In this document: one piece after another, positions 4,101-45,006 of the stretch
How the letters are laid out: the number at the start of each line of letters is the position of its first letter
Position numbering within the stretch: the first letter of the stretch is position 1
Assembly (NCBI GenBank): GCA_015956445.1
Contig: WIUZ02000003.1
Coordinates: 1,674,001 to 1,738,000, forward strand
Direction: 5' to 3'
From: Thelephora terrestris
Taxonomy: Eukaryota > Basidiomycota > Agaricomycetes > Thelephorales > Thelephoraceae
Length of the DNA stretch: 64,000 nucleotides
Notes under the pieces: generated by a model
The model's database searches: none
What the model saw: the letters and a program-made list of their open reading frames with translations, nothing else
Told to the model about the DNA's origin: nothing
Translations under genes and position numbers: made by a program

Positions 4101-4483
4101 CAGAGAGTCTTATAATCCATGCATTCAGATTTTTTCCCTGTCTTAGAGTTCTAACATCCACTACTTGTTATTGTGAGTTCCACAACCCTCTCATTACTAG
4201 TTGTGATGATTTCACTGTTTACCCCCTTTCATTTCCTTCATTTAACGCCTCATCATCAAGTCAATTGGTGCCCTGCCCTAAACACGGCGGTAAACTGTTT
4301 ATTATGCAATATGCCCTATGCTTAACGACTCAAAGTCCAATACGTGGAATGTGTTACTAGTCAAGATACCCCAGAAGATCCGAGGTATAATACGTGAACA
4401 TGTACCGGCGGACCTTCATACAAAGATCCTCCCTACCTGGCCCTCTGTTGCCCCTGGACGACTAGTAGATATTCAGGCTACCG

Positions 4484-4560
4484 ACAACAAGGGATGTATT
4501 AATAAGTGTCGTGCGTTGACCTCTTGCAGAAGTCAACCGGCTTATTAATCTGACCCTTGG
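4484..4560 (+). other. conserved box with hairpin inside E1
   Basis: ACAACAAGGGATG (4484-4496) and TGACCCTTGG (4551-4560) bracket a near-perfect hairpin: ATTAATAAG (4498-4506) pairs with CTTATTAAT (4541-4549) and GTTGAC (4515-4520) with GTCAAC (4532-4537). The same two edge strings bracket other middles in B1, B2 and E2. Confidence 0.6.
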
Positions 4561-4659
4561 ATTGGACTTATAAAAACCATTATGCTTTACAACTCATGGA
4601 TCACACGCAAAAGACAAGAAAGGAGATTGATTCCGGAAGCCATCGTACAGAAGACTTAT

Positions 4660-6450
4660 TTAATCAAGATCTCTGCGAATCCTCTGTACTGCTTCCAAGG
4701 CTGCCCTCACCAACTCCTCGTTCGCCCAGTTCGCCTGCCTAATCTCGTTCGGGTCTACGTCCGACAGGTCCCCGTAATCTGGAAGTTTGGTATCAGAGTT
4801 TGGTTCCGAATCAGGAACGAACTCGGCATACGGATCAAACTCCAGAGCCGGCCATTGGTTCCTCGGCAAAGTTGTATCTGTAACCATGACAAGAGGAGTC
4901 ATTCTCCTACAAGGAATGGGAGTATCCCTACAGACAACTCCAACATTCCTGTAGAACTCCTCCTCTTGAATCTCAACAACTTCGTCATCAATAGGAACCA
5001 ACCTGTTTTCATACTGGACCACCAAACGAGCAGGTGGAGACTCAGCACGCTCCGGAATCATCAACTCCTCTTCCTCAACTCGAACCTCCAGCTCATTACA
5101 CCTCCTCTGAAGATCACGGACCTCCCCAGTCAATTCCGAGACACGACGGGTAAGACGAGCCTAAAAAGGAAAAGGGTTAGATGAGAACAAATATCTTCTA
5201 CCCCTATCCCTTACCCTGTCATCCTCCAATTGACTGACTCGATCAACCAAATTCGGGATCAAGTCTGTCTGGGCAACCAGACCCCGGATCAAGTCCTTCA
5301 ACGTGATCACTTCTCCCTAAAGAAAGTTTGAGTTAGGCAGGTCAATTACTCCTGACCCAAACTTTCTTACCTTCAACCTATCAATTGCCATACCCTGTTG
5401 CTCTTGCTCATCTTCAGTCTTCAACATCCATTCTTGAAATCCAAGACAATCCTTCTCCAACTTCTCGATCTCTTCGCGGCAACCATCAACTCACTCATTG
5501 ACATGAGCAATCTCATCCATCAACATAACACCGATGTTGCTCGTGTGAACAACACTGGTGTCAAGGATTAAGTTGAAAGTCTTGTTTGCCTCGGTGATGA
5601 ACTTAACGCCACGACCTAAGAGTTTGGCCGAATAGGGGTTAGTCTCGATACGCGCCAACTTCTGCTGAGACACCCTTCGAGAGGCCTGGATGAAATCCCT
5701 GAAACCTAAAAGGACACTGGGGGCAGGGGCGCCTGGAATTGGTGATTACATCTTGATTACATGGTGAGTTCATGTGCACTTTTCAATGATTGTAATCACT
5801 GATTCCAGGTTGATTACATTTCAAATGTTACCTTGACATGTAATCCAGCCAATGTCCACCAATTACATTTGAAATGTTCTCAACAAATGTTTTTGGGATG
5901 TTTTTTACCTGTCAGCAAAAATGATACTGCAATGTAGTCAACATGTTCTTCAATCGTCCAAGATGTAATCTAAATGCGCTCAAAAACATGAGATGTTTTC
6001 ACAATGTGCCCAGTGGGCACATTCAGGAAACATTGCTTGGGAACATTTTGAGGAAATTTCAAATGGAGTTGGTGGGCACAGTTGAATTACATGTCAAGGT
6101 AACATTTGAAATGTAATCAACCTGGAATCAGTGATTACAATTATTGAAAAGTGCACATGAACTCACTATGTAATCAAGATGTAATCACCGATTCCAGGTG
6201 CCCCTGCCCCCAGTGGGAGTTAGTTCGCTTTCTTAAACCGGAATGCGCAACCAGACCCCCCACCTAAGTCGGTAAACCCTTCTTGAGGGTTGGTGGTGGC
6301 GGAACGGTCCATAACAGCTCCCAAAGAGGGATAAGGACGGGAACAATCCCCATGAGCATAGATAAAGCAGTCTTGGTTGAAGTTGTTCTCCTGAACAGGA
6401 GAAGGGTTGGAAGAACGACAGGAGGGAGTGTGGGTGTGAACTTGAGGCAT
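4660..6450 (-). CDS. antisense coiled-coil coding region of E1 (several blocks)
   Basis: Several minus-strand blocks resemble a multi-exon gene. A first block near 6450-6230 begins MPQVHTHTP. A second near 5700-5490 contains EANKTFNLILDTSVVH and the end MDEIAHVNE. Heptad-like blocks follow, and the last block (5133-4660) is acidic, starts with a coiled coil (REVRDLQRRCNELEVRVEEE) and ends VQRIRRDLD. The blocks recur in E2. MITE H1 lies between the first two blocks. Function is unknown; by analogy with A, B and C it is the antisense protein of this module. The region belongs to an old element and looks broken. Confidence 0.5.
5715..6215. mobile_element. palindromic MITE H1 (CACTG ends, 3-bp duplication)
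   Basis: Near-identical terminal inverted repeats of at least 130 bp start CACTGGGGGCAGGGG. Both sides carry the 3-bp duplication GGA (5712-5714 and 6216-6218). The other copy of module E has the empty site near 31950-31970 (AAAGGAGTTAGTT), which fixes both boundaries. There is no coding capacity. CACTG ends with a 3-bp duplication fit a CACTA (CMC/EnSpm-like) or PIF-like DNA transposon; the transposase source is not in the window. Confidence 0.85.
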
Positions 6451-6859
6451 GTCATTGGTGTGTAACAAAGGTGGTTTGTTGGGAGACTCAGTTATCCAAC
6501 CCCCTTTGGTTATATACCAAACGCCACACCCCTTCCACGACTCAGGAGTTGAGTCATCCTTTCTATTGTTTACTGCGCATGACCCACATGACATCATATG
6601 CTCCCCTTTTGCTATTGGCTATTACTCAGCCAACCTACATTTGTTTCCGAACATTCCCATGATACGTCATGCTTTGTAACTGCTTTGTAATGCTCTCAAA
6701 TTGCTATTGGCCGCCACACTTTTGTTTATCAGCTGATAATTTGTAGCATTAGTCACCAAGTAATGCACAGACCATGCAGTGCTGTGCATGGACCATGTTT
6801 GTTTGTGTTTGTATCATTAGTATAGTTACTTGTCACTGTCACGTCACAAATCTAGGAAG

Positions 6860-6867
6860 TATATATA
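6860..6867 (+). promoter_or_regulatory. TATA box of E1
   Basis: TATATATA lies 258 bp before the CTGACA end and about 410 bp from the start of the antisense coding region, which is the divergent layout of all these modules. The matching box in E2 is at 32592. Confidence 0.55.
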
Positions 6868-7204
6868 CTCAGAGTAGTTTAGCCTGTACTTCCTTAGATT
6901 TGTTATCATCAGACTCTCTGTGACCTCTACTGCTGTGTGCTAAGAGCAAGAGTATCTGAAGAACCTTGTCTCCTTCTTTCTCCTCTCTTCTACTCTATGT
7001 CAGTGAAGAGACTTCCAATATCCCTGGGTTTGTATCAGGGTGATTACTGTGTGTTTGACCCTTGATTACAATAGGTTTGGATACCAAGAGTGTTATTGAA
7101 CTGTAGAGGTTGTGTCGGCCTGACACTAGTTACATGAGGGACAAAGCATATCTTACTTCCTACTGCTTGGCCTACATAGAAGGTCCCTCTGCATCCCAAC
7201 TCAT

Positions 7205-11376: not shown

Positions 11377-11562
11377 TGTCAGGAACATGGTATTTTTAAA
11401 CTTTTTATAACACACTCTTTCTTCGAACTCTTCTTACCATTTCTTATGTTTGAATGCCTCACGTTCATTATCCTTCACACCGATCATTCAAAAACACACA
11501 AACGCGCATACATTCACGGCAATACGGAACAACATGGCTATACTAATGCTTATACAACGTCC

Positions 11563-13301
11563 TCAAAAGTCGACTCGGTCTACGGCAGGCCTGAAGGTCA
11601 TCAACTGTCCATCCCGGAGATCGTAGTGCTGGCCCCTCCTCGCAAGGACCTCCCCGAACATGGCGTCACCATCTTCGGCACTCAGCTGAACGACTAGTTC
11701 AAGCCGATAGGAAGAGATGCCTTCGAGCGGACCGATCAGCCTCCCAGATGTCACCGAACTGCTGAATACCTGGTCCCACATCTCCATCACCGGGTGACTG
11801 CTCGACAGCACTATTGACGTAGTCGGCAAGTGACCCTCCGTCTCCCTCGTCGGACCCCTGGGTGGGATCCTGCCTTGCGAGGCGAAGCTGGTGTCGGAGT
11901 TGGATCTTGGACTCGACCTGTCGGTAAGGACGGTGGACCCGATATCGGAATCCTCGCTCCTCACCTCGACCAGAGAGGTCACCATCCGACTCGACTGGTC
12001 GAGGGTAAGGATTAGCCGACGCGGTCATACGATGAGCAGGACGGCGTCGAGAGCGTTTGCATCGTTGCCCCTTAGTCACCGGACGTACCTCGGCGACCCT
12101 CGGAGCATCTTCGGCTCGGTCAACCTCCATGACCTCATCCTCGATCTTCACCAACTGATGGATCGGCTGCAGGGCACAGCGCTCACAGTTCTCCTTGTCG
12201 GAAGCGACCAAAGTAGAAGCCAGAGCCAGAGTCGGGACGGGAACCGAGTTCTCGATCGGAGGTGTCGCATAGGACGACGGGTTAGGAGATGGGAGTACCA
12301 CCTCGTCGGCGTACTCCAACTTGAACGGAACATTGGCTGTCCCCTGACCAACCAATTTGGGACCCTCCTTACAGTTGCAGGTCTTGTCCTGCAAGGACTC
12401 AACTTGTGCTGTCAACACGGCCACCACGTTCTCAAGCTCTTCCGTCTAGAAGAAGCGTCAGCTTCCCTCATTTCGTCTTCAAGATGAGGAAAGCTACCTT
12501 TTCATCCCTCCTGGCCAATGCCCCCTTGATGTTGTTGTCCCGAACCTTCAACCCTGCGATTAACTCTTGATGGTTGGCGACCATTGCCTCCAACGCCTCG
12601 TTCGTTCCTTGTTGGAAGGCTGCCAAGGTCTCCTTCATCTGAAGACCCTCTGCTGACAGACGAAGGACATCTGCCTTCGCCTCCTTCACTTCGCGCTCCA
12701 ATCATTCAACCTAGGCAGTCTGATTAGTCGAGAGTCATACTCGAATATTCAGACGGAAAACCTACCCGGCTTTCTCCCTCCCGAACGAGCGACCACAAAA
12801 GGCTAGTGGAAGCGGTAGCATGGCGGACAGCCCGAGGAACGGTTGCTCCGTGCTCCAATAGGTCCTGATCGTAGATCCCCCTCTGCAGGGTGTACCAGAG
12901 CTCCTTCTTGATCGGATGCTCAAGCTCCCCGAACCTACCCCTCATCTGGAAGGCCACCTTCTCGGCGATGATCGTACAGACCCAGAGTTCATCGTCCCAG
13001 GTCAACCCCATCAAATGAGGCATTGTCTCCCTGAGACGTTCGGCGTCCACTTCCGTAACGACCTCCAAGATCTAGAAGCCGTTAGTTTGACATCAACGCC
13101 GAAAGAATGGACCTCTACCTAGAGGAAGGCATTAGTGCAAACATACGAAGCTCTAGGTCTCCCCCATACCTGGTCATCAGTGGTATAAGGAGTCCCCGCC
13201 GCACAGGCGTAGGTCTTGCGAGCGGCGGCACGACGGTCGATGCGAGAGATGGTGGAGATGCCGTTGGCGACTTTGTAGGTATGGTTGTTGGGGAAGGACA
13301 T
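11563..13301 (-). CDS. antisense coiled-coil coding region of B1 (several blocks)
   Basis: Minus-strand blocks run from 13301 (start MSFPNNHTYKVANG) through 13083-12724 (contains LTWDDELWV and KKELWYTLQRGIYD), 12712-12468 (coiled coil LEREVKEAKADVLRLSAEG) and 12450-11563. The last stretch is long, with CNCKEGP, RSRRRPAHRM and the end RPAVDRVDF. Block order, the DDELW and GIYD motifs and the REVKEAK coiled coil match the antisense protein of family C, so the two are homologous. B2 keeps the same blocks. I know no named family; a chromatin or nucleic-acid binding role is possible from the coiled coil and basic Cys/Arg patch but is inference. Confidence 0.55.
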
Positions 13302-13656
13302 GTTGTGGTAAGATGATGGGGAAGTTGTTGGTGTTGCTGATCAAGGATGGCTCCAAGAAGACGTCCTTCTTATAGCCTAGATCGGTGATCCTTCACGTGA
13401 CCTACCTCGACGAACCTCATTGGTCCGGGTCACATCAACTTCCGCCCCTGTACCATCATCGTTGGCTTACTACATCAAGCTGACACCTCGGCCCGCGGGA
13501 CGGCCTTGGAAGAACTTCGTTCCAGAACGCCTAGAACGCGCGCGCACTAAAAATAGGTCTCAAGACCCTGATGACCCCTTCATGACATCATGAACCCCTT
13601 TTACGACCCCTCATGACTTTACGATTATGATCAACCCTGGACCCTAGAACACACAC

Positions 13657-13972
13657 GTGGGCACGGGGTATCAACATTTGGACACTGTGCTTCTAATTGG
13701 ATAGTAACCCTATCTGATCTGGTTGCACTTTGGAAGCAGAGTAGGCCCGAGCCGAGAACGGCGGCCGAAGAATATAATTCCTGGTGCCACTTAGGAAGAA
13801 CGATATTCCCAGGTACTATGCCTAATCAAGACTGGGTCTGATCAAGCGATTACGGTTGCAACTCCCAGGTTACTGCCTGTCCGTTGGTATTATACCACCT
13901 ACCGACAACAAGGGATGTGTAGAGTTCCTTCGATCTCTAGCCAATCGCAGAAGCTCAGAGACGGTGCTCACC
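13657..13972 (+). other. variable cassette in B1
   Basis: Compared with B2 (41994-42284) this stretch is essentially unrelated although the DNA on both sides is nearly identical. Only the box ACAACAAGGGATG (13905-13917) inside it, and the edge TGACCCTTGG (13973-13982), are shared. Confidence 0.65.
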
Positions 13973-14248
13973 TGACCCTTGGGTGTGGTCTAGATTCAGG
14001 TACGAACTTTCATGACCCATGCCCCTTTTTCTTTTAGGACTAGTGTTATCTTTACCCCTATGTTTCATGCGGACATTCGTTATCTTTCATGCAACCCTTC
14101 ACATGCTAGTAAGGCCCTTTGTCCTTTATTCTCCCACGCATCATCTTTGTTCACTTCCCTTACTTAGCGTTCTCACACTCCTTATCTCCCTTTGTTCTGG
14201 ACTTGATAAGGGTATATTAGGGTATTGATGTCATGGCCACTCCTTTAG

Positions 14249-14254
14249 TATAAG
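14249..14254 (+). promoter_or_regulatory. TATA box of B1
   Basis: TATAAG in a stretch identical to B2 (42557), about 950 bp from the start of the antisense coding region and 450 bp before the CTGACA end. Confidence 0.5.
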
Positions 14255-14701
14255 TAGCAACTGTGGCTGTATCGTAGTACCTTAGTTTTGTTACCTCAGG
14301 AAATCCTCTGCCCTTCTCAGCCCAGTTGCAGTTAAGGACAAGTCAAAGTTTCTTGTTTGATCCAAGACATCCCCATCTGCTCTCCCTCCCGCTCTGCGCG
14401 TCAGCTGCGCCTCGTAACTATAGACTCCCAGCAGTCATATTAGAACACCTCGAGCGTCCAGTCGATCAACTGGTGGAGTCATCAATCCTGCTGTAGGGAT
14501 AAACCCTTGCTTGTTAAACTGAACGAAGTGCGGTTTAGGTTGGGTTTCTCTTTAGGATTTTGACCTGACTTGCAGTGACCTCGGACAACCTACCGGAAGA
14601 ATAGAGGCGTGATCGTTCTCTCACAAGCTAGTTGGACTAGTGAGTACTCTGCGGAGTCGGCTCAGTGCACTGGTAGTTGTTGGGGTAGAGTGGCCCTGAC
14701 A

Positions 14702-29640: not shown

Positions 29641-30143
29641 AGCAGTAGTGGATATTTGGAGAAGGTGGTACTGGTGTTTGGTGGGAGTGGAGAAGAGACG
29701 ATGAGGGGAACGATCATTAATCCCCCTGACTTAAATACATCCTGACTCAAAGAAAACCAAAAAGAGAAAACAACAACCCATTATCCATTAACGTCCTCAT
29801 TAGGACAAACGAACCCTCAACTCCAATCACGATCCCATCAATTCAGAGAAATCCCCATCGATCATGGGAAATCCCCATTTGTCCTCTACTGCCACCGTGA
29901 AACGAGAGAAATCCCCACCGATCATGAGAAATCCCCATCAGTCTTCTATTACCACCATCGATCGTGAGAAATCCCCATTATGCTCCTAATGACTCCTTTA
30001 CTATTGTTCTCCTATTTCACTTCGTTATTTGTCGCTCCAAAGTCCCACTTCTCTGACTCATCTACCCTGCCCTAAACTACGCACAGACCATGTTGATCCC
30101 TGTTTGGTTCGTTGTAAAATAATGACTCCTGTAGAGGATTGGG

Positions 30144-30150
30144 TATATAA
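30144..30150 (+). promoter_or_regulatory. TATA box of A2
   Basis: TATATAA followed by a pyrimidine-rich stretch (CCTTTCTTTTCCCC), a typical fungal start-site context. Confidence 0.6.
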
Positions 30151-30294
30151 GGAAGAGCGTTCGCTCCTTTCTTTTCCCCATTCTCAATCTCTTCTGTACT
30201 CCTCTACCCACAACCTGAATACAAGTAAGCTGAGGAATTCTCCTCATGCCTTATCCTTTCTGACTCATTTCAGCAGAAATCCTCCTGCCAGTGT

Positions 30295-30918
30295 ATGTTC
30301 AGAGCCCCTAACCCTTTCCCCTCTACAAGTCCAGTTCAGCGACCAGTCGTCCCTGACGCTAGGAGATCTATCTGGGAGTATAAACTCATCAGAAGTCTTC
30401 AAGTAAACCGAACCACCGGCTTACTCACCCATTTCCCTTACTACCGCCCCTTTGCAGCTCTCGACACTGGAGTCACTACTCCCCCTTTTCTCCTAGGAGC
30501 AGATCATCAATTCCTTTGGAATTCAGATCTTACGGAGAGCGTCCTTGCGACTGTCTACTTCGGTATTAGTCCAGCCTTTTATTTTCCCTCCCCACGTGTT
30601 CATCTCACCACTAACATCCATACCCATTCTCCTGCTATCATCGTTCTTTGGTGGGAGATCCCAACTGAATTACCTTATTCAGTTATAGAATATCTCGTCA
30701 GCTTCGAACGTCTTAGCGACCAGGACTTCAAACCTTTTGTGCAGCAACTCAGCCAGTTCTGCCAGGACTACCACTCACCCGTGCATCCTTATCAGACAGA
30801 GTCACCTCTCTCTCTCGATATCCCCCCTCCCCTCGTTTCCACACCCGGAACCCCCTTCAAAACTAGACCCGACACCCCTCACCCCTCCGCTAATCCTCTA
30901 GCGCCCCACAAACAGTAA
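30295..30918 (+). CDS. 207-residue sense protein of module A2
   Basis: Starts MFRAPNPFPSTSPVQ; includes FLLGADHQFLWNSD, PAIIVLWWEIPTELPY and HPYQTESPLSLDIP; ends NPLAPHKQ. Compared with A3, most base differences are silent third-position changes (for example through TGLLTHFPYYRPFAALD), which suggests selection on the protein rather than mere youth. Function unknown. Confidence 0.7.
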   Translation: MFRAPNPFPSTSPVQRPVVPDARRSIWEYKLIRSLQVNRTTGLLTHFPYYRPFAALDTGVTTPPFLLGADHQFLWNSDLTESVLATVYFGISPAFYFPSPRVHLTTNIHTHSPAIIVLWWEIPTELPYSVIEYLVSFERLSDQDFKPFVQQLSQFCQDYHSPVHPYQTESPLSLDIPPPLVSTPGTPFKTRPDTPHPSANPLAPHKQ

Positions 30919-32591
30919 GCAGGCCCACAACCCTGACAAACTACATACAAGTAACTATGTATTGGCCACACTCGAAGGGAGGGAAGAGAGCAAAGTTCGT
31001 GCGATCGAGGCGGAAGTTTGGCAATTGAGACAACGTGTTTGGTAGGAAGCGGTGCTGGCCCTTGGCCTTGACCACCAGGGAGCTATGCTGATGACCGGTG
31101 GGATGCTCTGGGAAATACAGATGAGTGAGCATTGGGAGGGAATAAAGTGGATGGATTGTGACCAGGCACACTGCATACCAGGTGGGTGCTCACTTTGTAG
31201 CGGCAGTCATTTTTGTTGCAGCCATTGTTGGAATGGCGGATGATAATGTCTGCCAACTCCTTCTCCCTGCCAATGGTCTTAAATGGGGTGTCTTACAAGG
31301 GATCAGTGCGGCCACAGAATGAGGAGGGCAGGGATTGTACATTACTTTGGTGGTGGTCCCCATGACATTGTCCAACACAGGTCTTTCACAGATGTCCTAC
31401 AGAGGTTCCGTTTTGTATGGGGAACTAATGAAGGGGTGAGTTTGGGTGAGGGTTGGCATATGAGGAGGTGACTGACGCGCTTGGTGAAAAAACGATGAAG
31501 GCCCCATCACGGCAGGGATTCTGAAGTGGCTGCACCCACAGAGCATCAGCCAAATGAGGACCAGTGGGGATCCACAATGTTGAACGTTGAATAGGAGCAG
31601 CGTCGAAAGTCGGTGTAGTGCACAGGAGGAGTGCGTGTGAGGACTTAACCATTTTTTGAGTGCTATTTAGCTTACCGTACCCAAATCTCTTTGAATCCCA
31701 CATGCTCAGTTTCCAACTTTGTTGCGCTTGTAGTACTTCAGCTCACTTTTGGCCACTTTCAGGAACTTTTTGCTGGAGGAACATTCTTGGCCTCAGTTTT
31801 GGTCACTTTTGACACTTTGGTGGGCTTTTCTGCCTTTCAAAAAAAACTGTTTTGCTGATGGAGATAAGAGCTCCATGGTATAGGCATTGGTCTCGACATG
31901 CACCAACTTGCAGTGAGACACCCTTCGAGATACCTGAATAAAATCCCTGAACCCTATAAAGGAGTTAGTTCAAATCTACAAACAAGATTTGAACACACCC
32001 CACCTAAATCAGTAAACCCTTCGGTAGGGTCGGCAATGGCGGAGCGATCCATAACTTCTCCTAAAGGAGGATAAGGGCGGGACCGATCACGACGAGCCTG
32101 ATTGATGTTGAAGCTACTCTCCTGCACAGGAGAGTAAGAGGTACAACAAGTGGGAACACAAGTTTGAGCACGAGGCATGTTGGCTGTGTGTGTAACAAAG
32201 GATGGTTTGTTGGAAGACCTAGTCATCCAACCCCCTTTGGTTATATACCAAATGCCACACCCCTTCCACGACTCAGGAGCTGATTCATCTTTTCTATTGT
32301 TTGCTGCACATGACCCACATGACATCATATGCTCCTATCCCTAGTCATATGCTCCCCTTTTGCTATTGGCTGTTATTCAGCTAACCCACATTCATTTCCG
32401 CTGTCTTTGTCATGCTCTCAAATTGCTATTTTCTGTTATTGTTTTGCATGAGTCATCATGACTCATTTGTATTACTAAGAGTCTTAGTCATCCTGTGCAC
32501 AGACCAGGCTGTGCTGCATACGGACCTTGTATGACTCTGTTTGTATATTAATATAGTCACTAGTCACAAGTCACGTCACAAGTCTAGGTAG

Positions 32592-33784: not shown

Positions 33785-34398
33785 TGTCAGGGTTACCAGC
33801 CTAAGCTTGTTCTGATGTCAGAGGATCAGTGTTGGGGATGGAAAGGGGGTTGGAGGAGATGTCTAAGGAGGTGGTATGTAGGGGCAGAGGGAGATGGATG
33901 TGGGGATAGAGGGGTTTGTTCTCTTGATTGATACCTGTAACCAATGAGAAGATGTTAGGAGTGTATTGAAGGTTCACACTTCAGGCAATTGATTTGCCCA
34001 TCAAATGAATAAAAGGGTGAGAATAGAGTATGGTTTATACTCTGATATATTGAAACTAATGATAGTGATTACAAAGAAGATTGAGGATGGGAAAAGAGAA
34101 AGGTCTGAGACACCTTTCCTTATATATATTCCCATCCAACAAGTCACATGATACTATTTGGTACTGTTTGGACATCTATCTTTGGCCTTGTTTGGTTGTG
34201 CAACAAATCATGTGATAAGTCACATGATGGTTTCCCACACATAGCCTTGATCATGCTCCCATCACCTGACATATTCTGATCACCTGACACTCTCTGCTGA
34301 ACCACTTACTGCCCTCAGGCTGCTTTGATGGGTCTTGATGGCATGAATTTCATTAACTACCTGGCTGATCTTTTGTTCCCAGAAGTGGATTCGTGACA
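33785..34398 (-). mobile_element. short LTR-like element D
   Basis: A 614-bp element. In its own sense (minus) it starts TGTCACGAATCC and ends GGTAACCCTGACA. Flanks are GCGTT (33780-33784) and GTGTT (34399-34403), a 5-bp duplication with one C-to-T difference; C1 shows the empty site near 21650. It has a minus-strand TATATATAA near 34129 but no coding frame. The ends are those of family A, so it may be a short relative. Confidence 0.75.
34120..34129 (-). promoter_or_regulatory. TATA box of element D
   Basis: TATATATAAGG on the minus strand, followed by a pyrimidine-rich tract as in family A. Confidence 0.5.
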
Positions 34399-34697
34399 GT
34401 GTTCTCCGGTAGGTTGTCCAAATTCACAGCAGGAGTGCCGAGCCTCTATCTGACAAGTCCCTATCGTCGTCTGAGGGCAGATGTAAGAGCCCGAGGATGG
34501 TGCCTCAAACTGTTGCTTGATGAAGAGAGCGGCGAGGAACTCCTTTTCGTAAGTGCGTTCGCTGATTCTTGATGCAAGGCTGAGAGAGAGTGTGTCACGA
34601 ACACGTGACATAGTAGCCAAGATCACACAAATAATTCAAGACATTGGTCTCATTCGCAGTAATAAAAGTACAAAAGAGTCTAACCAATATTACAAAC

Positions 34698-35594
34698 TCA
34701 AACTAGGACAAAAGGATCTACATCGCAAGAACAGTCCTGGGAAAATGGGCAACGATGAGCGAAATGATGAGGGTTGTGTACGCTCTGAGGGCAAGACGAA
34801 TACACCCGAGTTACCGGGTCTTGCCAACACTCCCTACATCCCAATACATCATGGAACAAACTATCATGCATCTCCCGCTTCATGTCTGTCAAAGCCACGC
34901 TCACTAATGCGAACCCATAACAGTCCTGGAGACCCGCTACCTCCACTTTCAGCTTCATTCAAACCTGACGTGACTTGTCGGAGGGACGACAGTGTTGACC
35001 AGTATGAGTCATCAGATTCTTGCACTCTTTCTTCTTCTGGGTCCTCGCCACCATCTGACGGCTCAGAACAGGACTCCAAGGAGGGGACTGAGGAAGAAGA
35101 ACTCCCTGATCCTGGAAACGGCGGAGGGACGACAGGGGAGTGAGGAGCTGCATTGGTGCAGTACGCTCCATGGCACCGATGGCCGAAATATCGGAGGAGA
35201 GATTCCTGAAAGGGTTTCCAATGTTCCAAGGCAAAGTGAGAGAAGTCTTCATTGAGACTGTTAATGACGACATACATGACATCCATCCTCTTCTCCAACT
35301 TCAGGATCCTATCCTCCCTCTCTTTCTCCATGGTGTCCTGCATGGGAGTGACCCCTGGAGCCCATCGTCGAGTACGGTTGGGATCTTCGTACCCAGCTTG
35401 TTCCCAGAACTCGGCAGGAGCGTTGTGAGCCGTCAAGAAGTCGATTGTGACCTCATTGTCGTGAGCAATGTTGGCGGGGGAATCGTATAGGTGCTGCTCC
35501 ACGTTGAGAGGAACATCTGTCTCAAAGGACGGAGAGAAGTCGAAGGGTGGCAGCGGCGTTGAGCAGGGCGTTGTTGGCAGCGTAGGCAGACATA
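34698..35594 (-). CDS. antisense coiled-coil / Cys-His protein region of A3
   Basis: Blocks correspond to those of A2 and A4: FSPSFETDVPLNVEQHLYD, AEFWEQAGYEDPNR, the coiled coil EDRILKLEKRMDVMYVVI, YFGHRCHGAYC, and the overlapping Cys/His block (34958-34698) with GCRECWQDPVTRVYSSCP. It is nearly intact, with about one break. Confidence 0.55.
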
Positions 35595-36038
35595 GTAGTA
35601 GAAACGTTTGAAGAAGTGGAGTAGTGGTAATTGAGGGAGAGGAAAAGAGACGATGAGGGGAAAAGACCAATAATCCCCCTGGATTATATACAACTGACTC
35701 AATAGGAGGTCCAAAAGGGAAGACAATGAATCATTATCCATTCAAACCCCGCTTAGGATAAACGAACCCTTAGCCCCAATCACGATCCCATCAAATTCAG
35801 AGAAATCCCCATCACGCTTCTATTACCACTATGAAACGAGAGAAATCCCCATCGATCAAGAGAAATCCCCACTAGGCTTCTAAATGACTCATTCGCTATT
35901 GTTCCCCTATTTCGCACTCAATGTCGGTCGTTCTAAGTTCCCCTTCTCTGACTCATTCACCCTACCCTAAAGTACGCACAGACCACGTTGATCCCTGTTT
36001 GGTTCGTTGTAGAATTATGACTCCTGTAGAGGACTGGG

Positions 36039-36045
36039 TATATAA
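36039..36045 (+). promoter_or_regulatory. TATA box of A3
   Basis: TATATAA in GGGTATATAAGGAAGAGCG, 150 bp before the sense frame. Confidence 0.6.
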
Positions 36046-36195
36046 GGAAGAGCGTTCGCTCCTTTCTTTTCCCCATTCTCAATCTCTTCTGTACTCCTCT
36101 ATCAATACTCTCAATAAACAAAGTAAGCTGAGGAATCCTCCCCACGTCTTACTTCCTTTCTGACTCATTCAAAGCAGGAATTCTCCTGCCAGTGT

Positions 36196-36819
36196 ATGTT
36201 CAGTGCCCCCAATCCATTCCCCTCTACTAGCCCTATTCAACGTCTGGTTGTACCCGACACCAGGAGATCTATCTGGGAGTATAAGCTCATCAGAAGTCTT
36301 CAAGTAAACCAAACTACCGGTCTACTAACCCACTTCCCTTACTATCGTCCTTTTGCGGCTCTCGACTCCGGAGTTACCACTCCCCCTTTCCTCTTAGGAG
36401 CTGATCATCAATTCCTTTGGAATTCGGATCTCACTGGTAGTGTTCTAGCAACCGTCTACTTTAGTATAAGTCCAGCCTTCCATTTTCCTAACCCTCGCAT
36501 CCATCTTACCACTAACACCCATACCCACTCCCCTGCCATCATTGTCTTGTGGTGGGAGATCCCAACTGAATTACCATATTCAGTTTTAGAATACCTCGTC
36601 AGTTTCGAACGCCTCAGTGATCAAAACTTCGACCCGTTCATTCAACAACTGAGTCAATTCTGTCAAGACTACCACTCGGCCGTCCACCCTTATCAAACCG
36701 AGTCGCCACTCGCTCTTGATATTCCTCCTCCCCTCGTCTCCACACCCGGAACCCCTTTCAACACTCGACCAGACACTCCCTATCCGTCCTCTAATCCTCT
36801 AGCGTCCCCAGAACAGTAA
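36196..36819 (+). CDS. 207-residue sense protein of module A3
   Basis: Starts MFSAPNPFPSTSPIQ; includes FLLGADHQFLWNSD, LTGSVLATVYFSISPAFHF, PAIIVLWWEIPTELPY and QFCQDYHSAVHPYQ; ends NPLASPEQ. It has the same length and block order as in A1, A2 and A4. Confidence 0.7.
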   Translation: MFSAPNPFPSTSPIQRLVVPDTRRSIWEYKLIRSLQVNQTTGLLTHFPYYRPFAALDSGVTTPPFLLGADHQFLWNSDLTGSVLATVYFSISPAFHFPNPRIHLTTNTHTHSPAIIVLWWEIPTELPYSVLEYLVSFERLSDQNFDPFIQQLSQFCQDYHSAVHPYQTESPLALDIPPPLVSTPGTPFNTRPDTPYPSSNPLASPEQ

Positions 36820-37607
36820 GCAGGCCTACAACCCTGACAGAGAGGAGAGTGAATGTGTTCAAAGAGGCACTCGATAAGCTCTTCAGTGGCCTACAGCAAA
36901 TACACTGATGCTGCAAGGAGAAGAGGACTTCCTGAGATATCAAAGATAGGGAATCCTCAGCTACTCTACTGGTACCTATATAGGAGAGTGGCCAGGGCAG
37001 AGATAATCCTATCTAATAATAACTTGGAGCAAGGAAGGGCCGAGAGTAAGCCAGAACAATAAGCGGCCCGGAACATAGAATAGAAATTATAAAGGAATGA
37101 GTAATGGGTCAGGGTTTGTGAGAAAATAAGAAAGGGGTCATGACGTCGTGTGGGAAAGGAATGACAAAGGACAATATCACATGCGAATACTAACCAATAA
37201 GAAGACGATGCGTCAGCTCATTCGATCGGGATAACAAAAGACCGAGTGGGGCTTGAGTGGTGTAACCGTTGCCAGGACAAATGTATGGGGAGTCTGGACC
37301 GGGGAAACGATGGGCCGATCCAATGGCAAATAGGACGCAAGTGCTGACAAAGGTCGGATAAAGTGTAGTGCGAGCCAGCCATTGGATCCATCAAACTCCC
37401 TTCTTCCCAAACTAACATTACTGTCAGGAACATGGTATTTTTAAACTTTTTATAACACACTCTTTCTTCGAACTCTTCTTACCACTTCTTATGTTTTGAA
37501 TGCTTCACACTCCTTATCCTTCACACCAACCATTCAAAACACACAAACGCGCATACATTCACGGCAACACAGAACAACATGGCTATACTAATGCTTATAC
37601 AACGTCC

Positions 37608-40600
37608 TCAAAAGTCGACTCTATCTACGGCAGGCCTAAAGGTCATCAACTGTCCATCCCGGAGATCGTAGTGCTGGCCCCTCCTCGCAAGGACCTCTCC
37701 GAACATGGCATCACCATCTTCGGCACTCAGCTGAACGACTAGTTCAAGCCGATAGGAAGAGACTCCTTCGAGCGGACCGATCAGCCTCCCAGATGTCACC
37801 GAACTCTGGAACACCTGGTCCCACATCTCCATCACCGGGTGATTGCTCGGCAGCACTATCGATACAGTCGACGAGCGACCCTCCGTCTCCCTCGTCGGAC
37901 CCCTGGGTGGGATCCTGTCTTGCGAGTCGAAGCTGGTGGCAAAGCTGGATCTCCGACTCGACCTGTCAGTAGGGACGGTTGACCCGGTAGCGGAAGGATC
38001 GTCCCTCATCTCGCCCAGACTGGTCACCATCCGACTCAACTGGACACAGGTATGGGTTAGCCGAAGGAGCCATGCGATGAGCAACACGGCGTCGAGAGCG
38101 TTTGCAACGCTGCCCTGTTGTCACCGGACGTACCTCTATGGCCCTCGGAACATCTTCGGCCCGGTCAACCTCCATGACCTCATCTTCGATCTTGACCAGC
38201 TGACTGATCGGCTGCAACGGGCAACGCCAACAGTTCTCCTTGTCGGACTCGGCCAACGTAGAAGCCAGAGCCGGAGTCGGGACGGGAACCGAGTTCTCTA
38301 CCGGAGGCATCGCATAGGACGACGGGTTAGGCGATGGGAGTACCACCTCATCGGCATACTCCAGCTCGAACGGAACATCGGCAGTTCCCTGACCGACCAA
38401 TACCGGACCTTCCTTGCAGTTACAGGTCTTATCCTGTAAGGACGCGACCTGCGCAGTCAACACGGCCACCACGTCTTCGAGCTGTTCAGTCTAGAAGAAC
38501 CTCTCAGTCATTGCATAAACCTGCAAAGGCTGAAAGCACCTTTTCATCCCTTCTGGCCAGCGCCCCCTTGATATTATTGTCCCTGACCTTCAACCCGGCA
38601 ACCAACTCTTGATGGTTAGCAACCATCGCCTCCAACGCCTCATTTGTCCCCTGCTGGAAGGCGGCCAGAGTCTCCTTCATCAGAAGACCCTCCGCTGATA
38701 GACGAAGGACGTCTGCCTTCGCTTCCTTCACCTCGCGCTCCAATCGTTCAACCTAGGCAGTTTGGTTAGTCGAGAGTCATACTCGAATATCCAAACGGAG
38801 AACCTACCTTGCTCTCCCCCCCCCGAACGAGCGACCACAACAGCGTCGTAGAAGCGGTGGCATGGTGGACGGCCCGAGGAATGGTTGCCCCGTGCTCCAA
38901 CAACTCCTGATCGTAGATCCCCCTCTGCAGGGTGTACCAGAGCTCCTTCTTAATCGGATGCTCCAGCTCCCCGAACCTACCCCTCATCTGGAAGATCACC
39001 TTCTTGGCGATCATGGACCGGACCCAGAGCTCATTGTCCCAGGTCAACCCCATCAAATGTGGGATCGTCTCCCTGAGACGTTCGGCGTCCACCTCCTTGA
39101 CGATCTCCAAGATCTAGAAGCCGTTAGTTGGACATCAACGCCCAAAAGAACGGAACCTCTACCTAGAGGAAGGCGTTAGTGTCAGGGTTGTGGGCCTGCT
39201 TACTGTTTAGGGGACGCTAGAGGATTAGCGGATGGGTGAGGAGTATCGGGTCGAACTCTGAAAGGAGTCCCGGGTGTAGATGTGAGGGAAGGGGGGATGT
39301 CGAGAGTGAGTGGAGACTCGGTTTGATAGGGATGGAAGGGCGAGTGATAGTCTTGGCAGAACTGACTCAGTCGCTGAATGAAGGGGTCGAAGTCTTGATC
39401 GCTAAGACGTTCGAAGCTCACGAGATATTCTAAAACAGAATAAGGGAGTTCAGTTGGGATCTCCCACCACAAGACAATAATAGCAGGAGAGTGGGTGTGG
39501 ACGTTAGTGGTAAGATGGATGCGGGGATTGGGAAAATAGAAGGCCGGACTTATACTGAAGTAGACGGTTGCAAGAACGCTCTCAGTGGTGTCTGAGTTCC
39601 AAAGGAACTGATGATCAGCCCCTAAGAGGAATGGGGGAGTAGTGACTCCAGAGTCAAGTGCCACGAAGGGACGATAATAAGGGAAATGGGTAAGTAGACC
39701 GGCGGTTCGGTTTACTTGAAGACTCCTGATGAGTTTATACTCCCAGACAGATCTTCTGACGTCAGGTATAACCGGGCGTTGAATAGGACTGGTAGAGGGG
39801 AAGGGGTTTGGAGCTCTGAACATACACTAGCAGGAGAATTCCTGCTTTGATAGAGTCAGAAAGAAGTAACACGTGAGGAGAATTCCTCAGCTTACTTTGT
39901 TTATTGAGAGGGGTGCTAGTAGAGGAGTACAGAAGAGATTGAGAATGGGGAAAAGAAAGGAGTGAACGCTCTTCCTTATATACCCAATCCTCTACAGGAG
40001 TCATTATTCTACAGCGAACCAAACTAGGGTCAACATGGTCTGTGCGTAATTTAGGGCAGGGTGAATGAGTCAGAATGAGGGGACTTAGAACGATAGATGG
40101 TAATTATTAATATGGGAACAATAGGGGTCCAAGCTGATGGAAGCATTCGGGGATTTCTTGTGTTTCATGGTAGCAATAGAAGCGTGATGGGGATTTCCCA
40201 TGATCGATGGGGATTTCTCTGGATCAATGGTAGCAATAGAAGCGTGGTGGGGATTTCTCAGGGTTTGATGGGATCGTGATTGGGGCTAAGGGTTCGTTTA
40301 TCCTAATTGGGACTTAATGCATGATGTCTTATTGTTTTCCTTTCTTGGCATTCTTTTGAGTCAGTCGTATATAATCCAGGGGGATTATTGGTCTTTTCCT
40401 CCCATCGTCTCTTTTCCCACCCCACCAATACTACTACTACTTCTCCTCTCAAATTGTCTTTGCTACTATGTCTGCCTATACTGCCAACACCGCTCTGCTC
40501 AACGCTGCCGCCACCCCCTTTGATCTCTCTCCGTCCTTCGAGACGGATACTCCTTTCGTCGCAGAGCAACACCTTTACGACACTCCCGCCAACATCACCC

Positions 40601-41638
40601 ATGACAATCAGATTGCCGTGGACTTCTTGACCGCCCACAATGCGCCTGCCAAATTCTGGGAGCAGGCAGGGTATGAGGACCCCAACAGGACTCGCAGATG
40701 GGCTCCTGGAGTCACTCCAATGCAGGACGCGATGGAACAAGAGAGGGAGGACAGGATCTTGAAGTTGGAGAAGAGGATGGATGTCATGTATGTTGTCATC
40801 AACAGTCTCAATGAAGACTTCTCTCACTTTGCTTTGGAACACTGGAAACCTTTCCAGGAATCTCTCCTCAGGTACTTCGGTCATCGATGCCATGGAGCGT
40901 ACTGCACCGATGCAGCTCCTCACTCCCCCGTCGTCCCTCCGCCGTCTCCAGGACCAGGGAGTCCCTCTTCCTCAGTCCCCTCCTTGGAGTCCTGTTCCGA
41001 GTCATCAGTTGGTGGAGAGGACCCAGAAGAAGAGTCGCAAGAGTCCGATGACTCGTACTGGTCAATGTTGTCGTCCCTCCGACAAGTCATGGCAGGTTCG
41101 GATGAAGTTGAAGGTGGAGGTAGCGGGTCTCCAGGACCGTTATGGGTTCGCATTAGTGAGCGCGGCGTTGACGGACGTGAAGCGGGAGATGCATGATAGT
41201 CTGTTTCATGATGTGTTGGGGTGTAGGGAGTGTTGGCAGGATCCGGTAACACGAGTATACTCATATTGTCCCCAGAGCGTACATAACCCGCACCACTTCG
41301 CTCATCGTTGTCCATTCGCTCAGGATTGTGCTTGTGATGTGGACCTGTTTGTTCTTGTTTGAGTTTGTAGTTTTTATTAGTTCCCTTTGTACTTTTATAA
41401 CTGCGAATAAGACCAATGTCTTGAATTATCTGTGCGATTTTGGTTACTATGTCACGCGTTCGTGACAGTTAGTGCTAACACGAAAAGCTCTAGACCTCCC
41501 CCATACCTGATCATCCGTGGTATAGGGAGTCCCCGCCGCATTGGCATAGGTCTTGCGGGCGGCAGCACGGCGGTCAATACGGGAGATGGTGGAGATGCCG
41601 TTGGCGACCTTGTAGGTATGGTTGTTGGGGAAAGACAT
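37608..41638 (-). CDS. antisense coiled-coil coding region of B2, interrupted by A4
   Basis: Same blocks as B1: a first block at 41638-41447 (MSFPNNHTYKVANG), then 39110-38766 (LTWDNELWV, KKELWYTLQRGIYD), 38743-38504 (coiled coil LEREVKEAKADVLRLSAEG) and 38472-37608 (CNCKEGP, RSRRRVAHRM, end RPAVDRVDF). Module A4 (39180-41467) sits between the first and second blocks. Confidence 0.5.
39200..39823 (-). CDS. 207-residue sense protein of module A4
   Basis: Starts MFRAPNPFPSTSPIQ; includes TAGLLTHFPYYRPFVALD, FLLGADHQFLWNSD, PAIIVLWWEIPTELPY and HPYQTESPLTLDIPP. It is whole and preceded by a TATA box at 39982-39976 on the minus strand. Confidence 0.7.
   Translation of the reverse strand: MFRAPNPFPSTSPIQRPVIPDVRRSVWEYKLIRSLQVNRTAGLLTHFPYYRPFVALDSGVTTPPFLLGADHQFLWNSDTTESVLATVYFSISPAFYFPNPRIHLTTNVHTHSPAIIVLWWEIPTELPYSVLEYLVSFERLSDQDFDPFIQRLSQFCQDYHSPFHPYQTESPLTLDIPPSLTSTPGTPFRVRPDTPHPSANPLASPKQ
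39976..39982 (-). promoter_or_regulatory. TATA box of A4
   Basis: TATATAA on the minus strand, in the context shared by all A copies. Confidence 0.6.
40468..41362 (+). CDS. antisense coiled-coil / Cys-His protein region of A4
   Basis: The first block (40468-41196, 242 residues) starts MSAYTANTALLNAAATPF and has EQHLYDTPANITHDN, AKFWEQAGYEDPNR, the coiled coil EDRILKLEKRMDVMYVVI and YFGHRCHGAYC. The overlapping Cys/His block ends at 41362 with GCRECWQDPVTRVYSYCP, NPHHFAHRCPF and DVDLFVLV. It is whole and the best representative of the family in the window. Confidence 0.65.
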
Positions 41639-41993
41639 GTTGGTAAGATGTGGGGAAGTTGCTGGTGTTGCTGATCAAGGATGGCTCCAAGAAGACGTCC
41701 TTCTTATAGCCTAGATCGGTGATCCTTCACGTGACCTACCTCGACGAACCTCATTGGTCCGGGTCACATCAACTTCCGCCATTGTACCATCATCGTTGGC
41801 TTACTACATCAAGCTGACACCTCTGCCCGTGGGACGGCCTTGGAAGAACTTCGTTCCGGAACGCCTAGAATGCGCGCGCACTAAAAATAGGTCTCAAGAC
41901 CCTGATGACCCCTTTATGACATCATGAACCCCTTTTACGACCCCTCATGACCTTACGATTACGATCAACCCTGGACCCTGATCACACACGTGG

Positions 41994-42284
41994 ACAGTCA
42001 CATCACAGTCTCCTAACCGGAGGAAGGAATCACTGTTATTCGGAAGGAGTGCCTTAGACTCCTTTTGTTTAGCCAAGCGAATGTGGAAGTAGCCGTTAGC
42101 GGGAAACACCGGCGAATCTGTAATCCCTCATGTCCCATGAGTCTAGGCCCACGCTCCTCATGTTTGGACGCACATTGAGGTTGCCACTAGTCCGTGATGC
42201 TGTTACCGCCTGCAGACAACAAGGGATGCTGTATGGTCTCTATCTTTGGCCTCTCCAAAGGAAGCATCCAAGAAGATTTTCACC
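41994..42284 (+). other. variable cassette in B2
   Basis: Counterpart of B1 13657-13972 but unrelated in sequence, apart from the internal box ACAACAAGGGATG (42216-42228; here preceded by GCAG) and the following edge TGACCCTTGG (42285-42294). Confidence 0.65.
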
Positions 42285-42556
42285 TGACCCTTGGGTGTGA
42301 TCCCCAGGTACGAACTTTCATGACCCCATGCCCCTTTTTCTTTTAGGACTAGTGTTATCTTTACCCCTATGTTTCATGCGGACATTTGTTATCTCTTATG
42401 CAATCCTTCACATGCTAGTAAGGCCCTTTGTCCTTTATTCTCCCACGCATCATACTTGTTCGCTTCCCTTACTTAGCGTTCTCACACTCCTTATCTCCCT
42501 TTGTTTGGACTTGATAAGGGTATATTAGGGTATTGACGTCATGGCCACTCCTTTAG

Positions 42557-42562
42557 TATAAG
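42557..42562 (+). promoter_or_regulatory. TATA box of B2
   Basis: TATAAG in the same context as B1 (TTTAGTATAAGTAGCAACTG). Confidence 0.5.
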
Positions 42563-43040
42563 TAGCAACTGTGGCTGTATCGTAGTACCTTAGTTTTGTT
42601 ACCTCAGGAAATCCTCTGCCCTTCTCAGCCCAGTTGCAGTTAAGGACAAGTCAGAGTTTCTTGTTTGATCCAAGACATCCCCCATCTGCTCTCCCTCCCG
42701 CTCTGCGCGTCAACTGCGCCTCGTAACTATAGAACCCCAGCGTTCATATTAGAACACCTCGAGCGTCCAGTCGATCACTTGGTGGAGTCATCAATCCTGT
42801 TGTAGGGATAAACCTTCGCGTGTTAAACTGAACGAAGTACGGTTTAGGTTGGGTTTTTCTTTAGGATTTCGACCTGACTTGTAGTGACCTCAGACAACCT
42901 ACCGGAAGAATAGAGACGTGATCGTTCTCTCACAAGCTAGTTGGACTAGTGAGTACTCTGCAGAGTCGGCTCAGTGCACTGGTGGTTGTTGGGGTAGAGT
43001 GGCCCTGACAATTACCACCAAACAACCATTCCACTCGCCA

Positions 43041-44744
43041 TGCCAATGATCTCTGATCGTGGCTTCCGTGCTGAGAACAGCACCGCTACCATCAAGTTCG
43101 CGGATCCACGAGCTGTGCAGAACAAGCGGTACTTCCTTCCTGCAGCTAGGGTGGCGTACCCCAGTTATCGAGAGGTGCAACGTCACGTGTCGCTGTTTGC
43201 TGGCAACAACTGATATCGCTTTCGCAGATCTTTGCAGCTGCAGACAAGGTGGATGCTCGTCAATTGGAGGTGACGATTGTCAATCCTCCTCGGTACTTGA
43301 CCATGGACGACGAATTGTGGTTTCACAACTTGATTGACCACAAGTTGCAAGAGTCGATGTGCAGGGTGACGTTTGACACCGAGCTGCACATGCCATGGGA
43401 AACTCCGGTATCATCCACCCTGTGGGGTCTTCTTCGAATGGGGATCTATGACCTGGGGGATGGCGAAGGAAGATGGCCTGGAGCTACTCGCTCGCAAAAT
43501 TACACAGCAGCCATTGGTCATCGCTCTGGTTCCTATTGCGGACGGAACAGAAAGCAGTGAGTCGATCTGTGCATCCTGCTTGTGGGATAACACTGATTGG
43601 CTTGTTAGAACGAACACCTGAAACGCGAGGTGAAGGAAGCAAAAGATGATGCCCATAGGATGTACCAGGAGATGTTGGACACCAAGAAGTCTCTCTTGCT
43701 TATGAACAACACACTTCGGGTGACGTTCGAGAGTGAGATGTTGGCGATGCGAGAGGAACACAACCGATTGGTCGAGTCGTTAAAGGAACGGGACGACAGT
43801 GTCCAGAAGGACTTGATTGAGGTCGACCGACGGCTCAACCGTCATAGAAGGGCTTTGAACGAGTTGGACACCAAGTTTGGTGTGATGTTCCCCCGTAATG
43901 ATGGAGGAAACTCATTCCACTTCTTAGGTTGATACGTTGGACGACGCTCTACCATTGCTGGGCGCCAGGGTCGACTCCATGAGTGAGCGACTATGCCATT
44001 GCTGTACTCGTTCAGTGGCTGCCGTCTGTGATGACTCCAAGGATGAGTCAATTCCAGACCGGATGGCTTTGCCGGCTTCTGACAGGTCATACCATATGCC
44101 GACGCGTACTGAGGGCGGGGAGGAGGTCGTTCGCGAGACGTCTGAGGAGACGGCCGTCAACCCAGTCAGCAGTTCGCCCGAGTTGGAGTACGAGGAAGAG
44201 AATGAGGTGGCTGTTCCAGTTCCTCCTCCTTCAGTCTCTCCGGTGTGTGGACAGCGCTCCATTCGTAGTTGTTGATGGGTTCCTTACAACGGTGCTCATC
44301 GTCCAGCCCATAGGATGCAACCAAGCAATCCCAATGTCTTCTTTGAAGGAGTCCTCGAGTCCACCTTCTTATTCCAATGCGATGATGCTTCAATGCCGGT
44401 TGGATCGCAGTGAGCTGATTCCCGTGGAGTCCGTTGACGTGAACGAGTTAACGAGCCTTACACTCTCATCGGTCCGGCATGCAGCGGAGGCCATACGGTT
44501 GGTGACTCAGCTGACCGAGAGGATGGAGGATTGGTCAGCACAGAGGACTCAGAGTTGGGACCAGACCTTGGTCGATTTAGCGAGGAGCCGCCTTCGCGCC
44601 AAAGTTCAGCTGGCCGTCACTCATTGTCTGGAGGAAGCTCAGGTCATCGAGATGGTCGACGAGGAAGTCGTCGAGAGTGCCTCGGAGGGGACGGAGGAGG
44701 AGGAGGTTGCCAGTGCTGAGGAGTACTGGCAGACTAGGTCTTGA
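43041..44744 (+). CDS. coiled-coil coding region of C2 (several blocks)
   Basis: The blocks follow C1: start MPMISDRGFRAENSTA; LTMDDELWFHNLIDHKL and LRMGIYDLGDGEG; the coiled coil LKREVKEAKDDAHRMY with HNRLVESLKERDD; MSERLCHCCTRSVAAV; CGQRSIR; and an acidic end with EEEVASAEEYWQTRS. It looks largely intact, with perhaps a few breaks. B2 has landed 30 bp upstream of its start, cutting it from its original divergent promoter region. Confidence 0.55.
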
Positions 44745-45006
44745 CGGATAGGGTCTGTACACCTTAGTCCTCGTCCATAGAGTCCGTGTGGATTCAACTC
44801 CGTCGGTGGTTCGTCTTATGTCTTCGTTGTGGTTGGCCGTCCATAATATCATCATGCTTGTCTGTGTCCTTTTGATGACGTGTGAGTCGTGATAAGGGAA
44901 ATTGATAAGATAAGAAAGAGGGGGTAAGGAAAGTAGGCGAAAGTTGGGTGTAAAAAATGGTTCAAAAAGGGAATAAAATTCAGCACCCTGACATCAATCA
45001 TGGAAC

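Follow-up and report, generated by a model that had tools for sequence, protein, structure and literature searches.

Long terminal repeats (LTRs) of retroelements are usually regarded as regulatory DNA. The superantigen of mouse mammary tumor virus (MMTV) and Nef of the human and simian immunodeficiency viruses (HIV/SIV) are coded wholly or partly in the U3 part of the LTR, on the sense strand and with no introns in the LTR part, and have an immune function. The antisense gene HBZ of human T-cell leukemia virus type 1 (HTLV-1) is coded mainly outside the LTR; a factor of this kind represses sense transcription. In Tf1-type self-priming, the primer binding site (PBS) pairs with the start of the element's own mRNA. 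Self-priming in chromoviruses has been described (PMC2864245), and plant Ty3/gypsy elements such as Retand, Grande (gene23) and RIRE2 carry conserved extra open reading frames (ORFs) in antisense orientation, of unknown function (PMC7264820, PMC11963269). Here a 64-kb stretch of DNA (the window; contig C23, positions 1674001-1738000) was analysed from the basidiomycete Thelephora terrestris, whose genome (covered by PMC7550596) comprises 40.6 Mb in 60 contigs. The window holds four families of LTR-like modules, A, B, C and E. Two of these families, C and E, prove to be the LTRs of sister Ty3/gypsy chromoviruses; by contrast to HBZ, their antisense gene is contained wholly in U3.

Modules C and E are LTRs of complete chromoviruses

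The modules were checked by self-comparison of the window and by direct reading of boundaries and flanks. A preliminary description of the window had assigned TG..CA ends and 5-bp target-site duplications (TSDs) to all four families, and direct reading of all listed duplications bore this out. It had also reported an antisense, spliced-looking coiled-coil region, a divergent gap and a TATA box facing the CTGACA end, and this arrangement of antisense coding region, gap and sense TATA box was found in A, B, C and E alike. All four were described as LTR-like modules of retroelements whose polymerase-bearing parent lay unseen, to be recognized by direct-repeat pairs around gag-pol. For C and E the parents were found outside the window, with such pairs on contigs C56, C12 and C5, whereas for A and B no parent turned up among the sampled flanks and reverse transcriptase (RT) loci, and their identity as LTRs is not established.

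A first look across the genome gave 245 candidates for A, 349 for B, 462 for C and 211 for E, 40 of them being scored per search. Same-strand C matches 9.3 kb apart enclose RT matches on contigs C56 and C12, and a same-strand E pair 8.8 kb apart encloses an RT match on contig C5, giving three complete parent elements, two of C and one of E. Their LTRs are unusually large, at 3300 and 3301 bp in C and 2932 bp in E. Since the paired LTRs differ at 0 of 3300, 0 of 3301 and 1 of 2932 positions, the insertions are recent; the TSDs are CTGCC, GTGCA and CAGTT. By Pfam search, the first ORF of one C element and of the E element has a CCHC knuckle and a sub-threshold gag match, and pol encodes protease, RT, RNase H, integrase, a Tf2-1-like SH3 domain and a chromodomain, in the order protease, RT, RNase H, integrase with the chromodomain at the C-terminus. 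The chromodomain (PF00385) was matched with E-values of 1.7e-16 in C and 2.8e-11 in E. The integrase core of E reached 25.5 bits, under the cut-off of 32.6, with its integrase zinc domain above the cut-off, and the second complete C element has a stop in the pol reading frame. Between C and E, pol is 62.5% and gag 28.5% identical. By score group, LTR candidates stand to RT matches as 462 to 8 in C and 211 to 3 in E (about 60-70 per RT match), the groups being defined by score with three members verified.

The 24 nt past the 5' LTR hold a stretch of 12 nt in C and 11 nt in E complementary to LTR sequence about 34 nt after the sense TATA box. Complements of these lengths (12, 12 and 11 nt in the three elements) were equalled in 0, 5 and 3 of 1000 random internal 24-mers. 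With the 5' end of the mRNA placed from the TATA position, the putative primer site fits Tf1-type self-priming. In module C1, a solo LTR (11377..14701, forward strand, TSD AAGGT) with complete parents on contigs C56 and C12, the sense TATA box lies at 14249..14254 (forward strand) and the candidate self-priming sequence TAGTTTTGTTAC begins 34 nt past its start. The PBS complement thus predicts a start of R near 14283, which therefore would place the antisense gene in U3.

The antisense gene of C and E

U3 of both C and E contains a complete intron-containing gene in antisense orientation, pointing away from the adjoining sense promoter. The E gene consists of six exons separated by five introns, each 50-64 nt long; across both families the introns span 50-101 nt. 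In module E1, a solo LTR on the reverse strand (21506..24437, TSD ATGTG, complete parent on contig C5), with a sense TATA box at 21974-21985 (reverse strand), the gene occupies 22437..24187 of the forward strand, with exons at 22437-22571, 22624-22953, 23005-23271, 23324-23474, 23525-23691 and 23756-24187. Its spliced product has 493 aa, the length of the NCBI model P0001, and is identical to it at 476 of 493 residues; P0001 represents a cluster of 51 sequences. These genes are annotated as hypothetical proteins. The gene is intact in four of the five E sequences (a single element contributes two of these, its LTR pair), where all five introns are GT..AG, and is broken in E2. The C gene has five exons and encodes 479 aa. 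It is intact in five of seven LTR sequences (three distinct: C2, Cfa and Cfb), and all four introns are GT..AG in all seven aligned LTR sequences (five distinct). In module C1 it runs on the reverse strand (11563..13301; exons 13301-13170, 13071-12766, 12710-12498, 12445-12089 and from 11994), with a stop at the beginning of exon 3. In A, B and C the start codon of the antisense gene is preceded by a TATA-like box at a distance of about 65-97 nt.

The C and E antisense proteins are homologous (314 columns, 31% identity, E-value 1.8e-30; 108 bits versus a maximum of 27.7 in 200 shuffles), and the gene therefore predates the split of the two lineages. The protein evolves about as fast as gag (31% versus 28.5% identity). 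Structure prediction of the E protein with AlphaFold2 from six sequences gave one confident feature, a helix at residues 133-277 (predicted local distance difference test, pLDDT, 77-93 by block of ten over residues 151-270; mean over the protein 50). Against Pfam, no family matched the antisense proteins above the cut-off, including TRP28, bZIP and zinc knuckles, and searches of solved structures returned nothing meaningful. Among the 8 and 47 matches of two protein searches there was no named relative outside Thelephora, genomic surroundings not being part of this check.

Selection on the antisense gene

Along the antisense exons of all four families substitutions follow a three-base rhythm whose frame shifts at the predicted introns (in A, among three copies); the divergent gap of B and C has no consistent rhythm of this kind. 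Ratios of nonsynonymous to synonymous substitution rates (dN/dS) were calculated by the Nei-Gojobori method as ratios of means, excluding pairs with dS <=0.03 or with less than 70% of codons, as well as gap and stop codons; both LTRs of one element were retained and the pairs are non-independent. Exons 1-5 of the E gene gave 0.10, 0.06, 0.06, 0.02 and 0.10, and exon 6 gave 0.45. In C, exons 1-4 gave 0.04, 0.11, 0.02 and 0.14, and exon 5 gave 0.56. In shifted frames dN/dS exceeded 1 wherever pairs remained, bar one frame in each last exon. The antisense gene of C and E is thus under strong purifying selection in all but the last exon. In B (25 aligned copies) the ratio was 0.12 for antisense exon 1, 0.10 for antisense exon 2 and 0.06 for a second, sense gene, and in-frame stops occurred in 2 of 22, 4 of 22 and 2 of 23 copies with enough sequence, respectively.

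The antisense protein had been proposed to be an accessory of these retroelements. With dN/dS of 0.02-0.14 bar the last exon, this holds for C and E, and we are confident that the gene is a real, selected, LTR-borne accessory gene.

Two predicted C-termini

The last exon appears to be read in two frames. In the spliced frame its dN/dS is 0.45 (E) and 0.56 (C), in the frame with the last intron retained 0.46 and 0.50, and in the third frame 1.03 and 1.16. Retention of intron 5 in E leads to a protein of 506 aa in four of five E sequences; retention of the last intron in C leads to 465 aa in the four LTRs of complete C elements, while C2 stops at 391. The retained-intron tail of E matches a Joint Genome Institute (JGI) protein, P0007, across all 156 residues at 54%, and it also matches part of the retained-intron tail of C with an E-value of 2.8e-5. 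Between the spliced tails of the two families, by contrast, there is no alignment. The tails differ in net charge (-14 spliced versus +12 retained in E; -4 versus +3 in C). A comparable overlap is present in B, where a 93-codon stretch is open in 21 of 22 copies (frame 0) with a two-frame substitution pattern; with splice sites guessed in this family, the unspliced tail has a charge of -10 and the other of +5. Judging from the predicted transcripts, we read this as one gene with two products, made by splicing or retaining the last intron.

Families A and B

Module A (4202..7125, forward strand) is a solo, LTR-like module with ends TGTGATG...CCTGACA and, by reading of the flanks, the TSD CTAGT; its sense TATA box is at 6860..6867 (forward strand). 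The antisense coiled-coil gene, spliced in appearance (4660..6450, reverse strand; exon borders approximate), shows the three-base rhythm in the three A copies and is interrupted by a foldback insertion of about 500 bp (5715-6215) with arms 91-96% complementary. This foldback, also seen at L067:270-776, is missing from another copy of A (in L023), while contig C60 has a version that is 95% identical.

The window has four B modules: B1 (24549..26793, forward strand, TSD GAACC), B2 (28632..30938, forward strand, TSD AACTA), B3 (34593..36839, forward strand, nested in E2; TSD GAGAG, provided that a 2-base TG repeat at the left tip is allowed) and B4 (39180..41467, reverse strand, TSD GTTAG, nested in C2). 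In B2 the antisense gene (28737..29640, reverse strand) consists of a 245-aa ORF at 29640-28903 and a spliced-type C-terminus in another frame to 28737, with guessed splice sites. Between the sense TATA box (25997 in B1, 30144..30151 in B2 and 36039 in B3, forward strand; 39969-39985 in B4, reverse strand) and the CTGACA end, a sense ORF of 207 aa is present in 20 of 24 copies, including all four in the window (26150..26773, 30295..30918 and 36196..36819 on the forward strand; 39200..39823 on the reverse strand). The preliminary description of the modules is accordingly amended at three points: A has a foldback, the genes of C1 and E2 are broken, and B carries this additional sense gene. The 207-aa protein has four homologs of the same length and 71-82% identity on JGI contigs of 1.0-2.5 kb, and its structure prediction was uninformative (mean pLDDT 38). 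The relatives P0009, P0011, P0012 and P0016 are on JGI contigs of only about 1 kb. Such short contigs might derive from transcript assembly, in which case soil fungi would express B. The B antisense protein had 47 matches, down to 46% identity.

TG..CA ends and 5-bp TSDs are thus present in both A and B. Among 20 further B copies, perfect 5-bp TSDs were found automatically in 12 and by eye in 2 more, the remaining 6 being without a recognizable left end or matching duplication. Where B is inserted in an RT-coding element (L092, L093), comparison with a copy that has no B (L094) gave junctions overlapping by exactly 5 bp, CCACC. This element, on contigs C6 and C33, is LINE-like (resembling long interspersed nuclear elements) by RT length and has B 0.5 kb upstream of RT; this B proved to be a solo copy inside the element. 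The two loci, on contig C6 and at the end of contig C33, are 99% identical, a duplicated or haplotig contig end. A pair of solo B copies, 99.3% identical to each other, occupies two loci whose perfect TSDs differ, and B has therefore moved recently.

Another possibility is that A and B resemble LTRs only at their ends and are in fact independent mobile units (with two genes in the case of B), or that machinery of the C/E type mobilizes them in trans. The two nearly identical B copies, both solo, fit this view. The right flanks of 20 sampled A and 20 sampled B copies had no shared leader, none aligning in register, and no A or B stood alongside 13 representative RT loci (five stretches of 8.4-8.6 kb and eight of 3 kb downstream of RT), a survey in which one C LTR adjoined an RNase-H-like frame. 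Several same-strand neighbours were rejected as LTR pairs. Two B copies 11 kb apart on contig C23 match at 85%, and a separate TSD, GGTTC, flanks the second; the neighbour of A in L103 is a separate insertion; two B copies 7.5 kb apart on contig C1 enclose A and B pieces; two A copies 144 bp apart on contig C21 match at 86% and have separate TSDs; and two on contig C59 are located in C sequence. Searches with other A and B subfamilies gave no direct pair, and PBS-based patterns for complete elements, which rested on guessed start sites, gave zero matches. Hence no complete A or B element was seen among the copies examined, at most 40 being scored per pair search out of 245-352 candidates (candidate figures, not a copy-number census). 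On the other side, the ends, the 5-bp TSD and the TATA position are as in C and E. The absence of complete B elements is weak evidence, because with some 60-70 LTR candidates per RT match in C and E a complete B missing from the sample is not improbable. We regard such a non-LTR nature of A and B as rather unlikely.

Other features of the window

Self-comparison resolved the region from 34.4 to 45.0 kb as a nested tower, in which E2 (also E'; 34398..44993, reverse strand), an older E copy with a broken antisense gene, is split by B3 and C2, and C2 (37422..43010, forward strand, TSD ATTAC) is in turn split by B4. Outside the LTR cluster, 54360-57065 and 57271-59994 form a tandem of a region of about 2.7 kb, 82% identical, part of which recurs at 46524-47022. 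Long, near-perfect foldbacks resembling miniature inverted-repeat transposable elements, with related pieces, lie at 26784-27450, 16574-16959 and 24438-24548; the one beside B1 has 310-nt arms, 98% alike, and a 47-nt loop. Against Rfam these pieces gave only sub-threshold microRNA matches. The paired motif GACAACAAGGGAT...CTGACCCTTGG, a CAAGGG/CCCTTG stem with a changed interior, recurs in A and C modules (4483-4560, 13904-13982, 20900-20977 and 42215-42294), and about 300 bp around it vary between copies in C. This motif might form a structured RNA or serve as a swap site. Elsewhere in the genome, B copies on contig C1 (about 164-197 kb) and on contig C17 (about 198-231 kb) are equal in identity and almost equally spaced, by 32.9 and 32.6 kb, which suggests a segmental duplication or unmerged haplotypes.

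Discussion

The explanation that we favour, and think probably correct as a whole, is that the LTR-borne antisense gene encodes an accessory protein that acts in trans for its element; a nuclear regulatory function is the likeliest role for it, though taken by itself somewhat less likely than not. The sense and antisense promoters of U3 would form a divergent pair, one driving the element and the opposite one the accessory gene, and the host would splice and translate the antisense mRNA. Since the genomic RNA is the sense strand, the antisense introns should not be spliceable during retrotransposition and the gene would survive each round; the persistence of four or five introns in LTRs that are identical between the two ends fits unspliced passage through the sense RNA. 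Reverse transcription would put a copy at both ends, giving a complete element two copies, and recombination between the LTRs would leave a solo LTR with one free-standing copy. The protein, with a long predicted coiled coil, is probably an oligomer having a conserved N-terminal region and alternative tails, and might act in trans in the nucleus, regulating sense transcription in the family, the export of its RNA or its silencing. The nuclear role is favoured by analogy with HTLV-1 HBZ and with proposals for plant antisense ORFs, a particle role being the second choice; the nuclear location itself is a guess that may well be wrong. A further-reaching version, doubtful at present, is that a trans regulator moved into the LTR, antisense and with introns, so that recombination between LTRs, normally fatal to an element, leaves self-promoted regulator genes, hundreds per family, which police or protect it, with B, observed here as solo copies only, as the extreme case of a two-gene LTR-like cassette spreading via the machinery of another element.

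Several observations weigh against such a regulator. Some copies of the antisense gene are broken (those of C1, E2 and the fragment L097), neither fold nor family searches point to a function, and E has no obvious TATA box upstream of the antisense gene. The last exons are only mildly constrained (0.45 in E, 0.56 in C), and the tails of C differ little in charge, the switch being clear only in E and B. Moreover, no homology to the C and E proteins was detected for the antisense proteins of A and B (hhalign probability of 0.1 for B versus E; best A-E BLAST value 0.21). The preliminary description had suggested one accessory system in four families. The layout is indeed common to them, but a common protein ancestry is not apparent, and a common function in all four is therefore not supported by homology. 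The shared design may reflect common descent beyond recognition or repeated invention.

Alternatively, the protein could be a structural accessory whose coiled coil joins Gag particles or moves ribonucleoprotein in the cytoplasm, a role proposed for the extra ORFs of other retroelements. The long predicted coiled coil and the gag-like pace of evolution would suit this, and a bdelloid element with a coiled-coil ORF3 has been described (PMC5408684). However, the protein has no zinc knuckle or other Pfam domain, and an antisense position away from gag-pol better fits independent expression; we consider a structural role rather unlikely. Passive carriage of a host gene captured once into the LTR is suggested by introns resembling ordinary small fungal introns (50-101 nt), but it was rejected on the evidence of purifying selection among element copies; the many near-identical copies (the 51-member cluster), the want of named relatives outside Thelephora among the 8 and 47 matches and the analogues in A and B likewise make it very improbable. 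Retroelement antisense transcripts can function at the RNA level (PMC7264820), and control by double-stranded or small interfering RNA or by promoter interference could be imagined here, the protein being immaterial. Against this, the in-frame dN/dS is far below 1, most shifted frames exceed 1, and the splice sites are conserved; on this frame-specific constraint a noncoding antisense RNA alone was rejected, and we give that idea hardly any credence. That the modules are DNA transposons or assembly artefacts is practically inconceivable, being refuted for C and E, where LTR pairs around gag-pol rule out DNA transposons, as well as contradicted by the empty site of the B insertion, with no supporting point found.

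If LTRs can carry genes, solo LTRs are not mere relics but possible sources of an element-coded factor, and the antisense ORFs of plant and retroviral elements, so far unexplained, would have a counterpart with measured protein selection, intact elements and many solos.

Compared with known systems, C and E resemble the fungal self-priming chromoviruses (Tf1, Tcn1-like) in the chromodomain of pol, the Tf2-1-like SH3 domain and a putative PBS complementary to the likely transcript start. As with the MMTV superantigen and Nef, their accessory protein is coded in U3 of the LTR, but unlike these it is antisense and has introns. In the available text on fungal chromoviruses (PMC2864245), a word search gave 0 occurrences of 'antisense'. 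An extra protein gene antisense to gag-pol is shared with the plant elements Retand, Grande and RIRE2, in which gene23 has its own promoter and some ORFs have Smc domains (PMC7264820, PMC11963269). The ORF of these plant elements lies in the internal region, between pol and the 3' LTR, and would be lost in a solo LTR, whereas the C/E gene, inside the LTR, survives. It also has four or five introns, is duplicated in each element and is without a Pfam domain, while Retand usually has a TRP28 domain. HTLV-1 HBZ and other retroviral antisense genes are similar in being LTR-driven and antisense, with spliced and unspliced forms that yield different proteins (PMC10186651). HBZ is of the bZIP type and its forms differ at the N-terminus (PMC10186651); the C/E protein has no bZIP match, in E only a long predicted helix, and its forms would differ at the C-terminus. 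A literature search for a protein gene lying antisense within an LTR found none in the available texts, subscription journals and Repbase entries being outside the search; such a gene may therefore have been noted before. Antisense accessory ORFs of retroelements and sense coding within LTRs are already known, and what looks new here is a spliced antisense protein gene inside the LTR itself.

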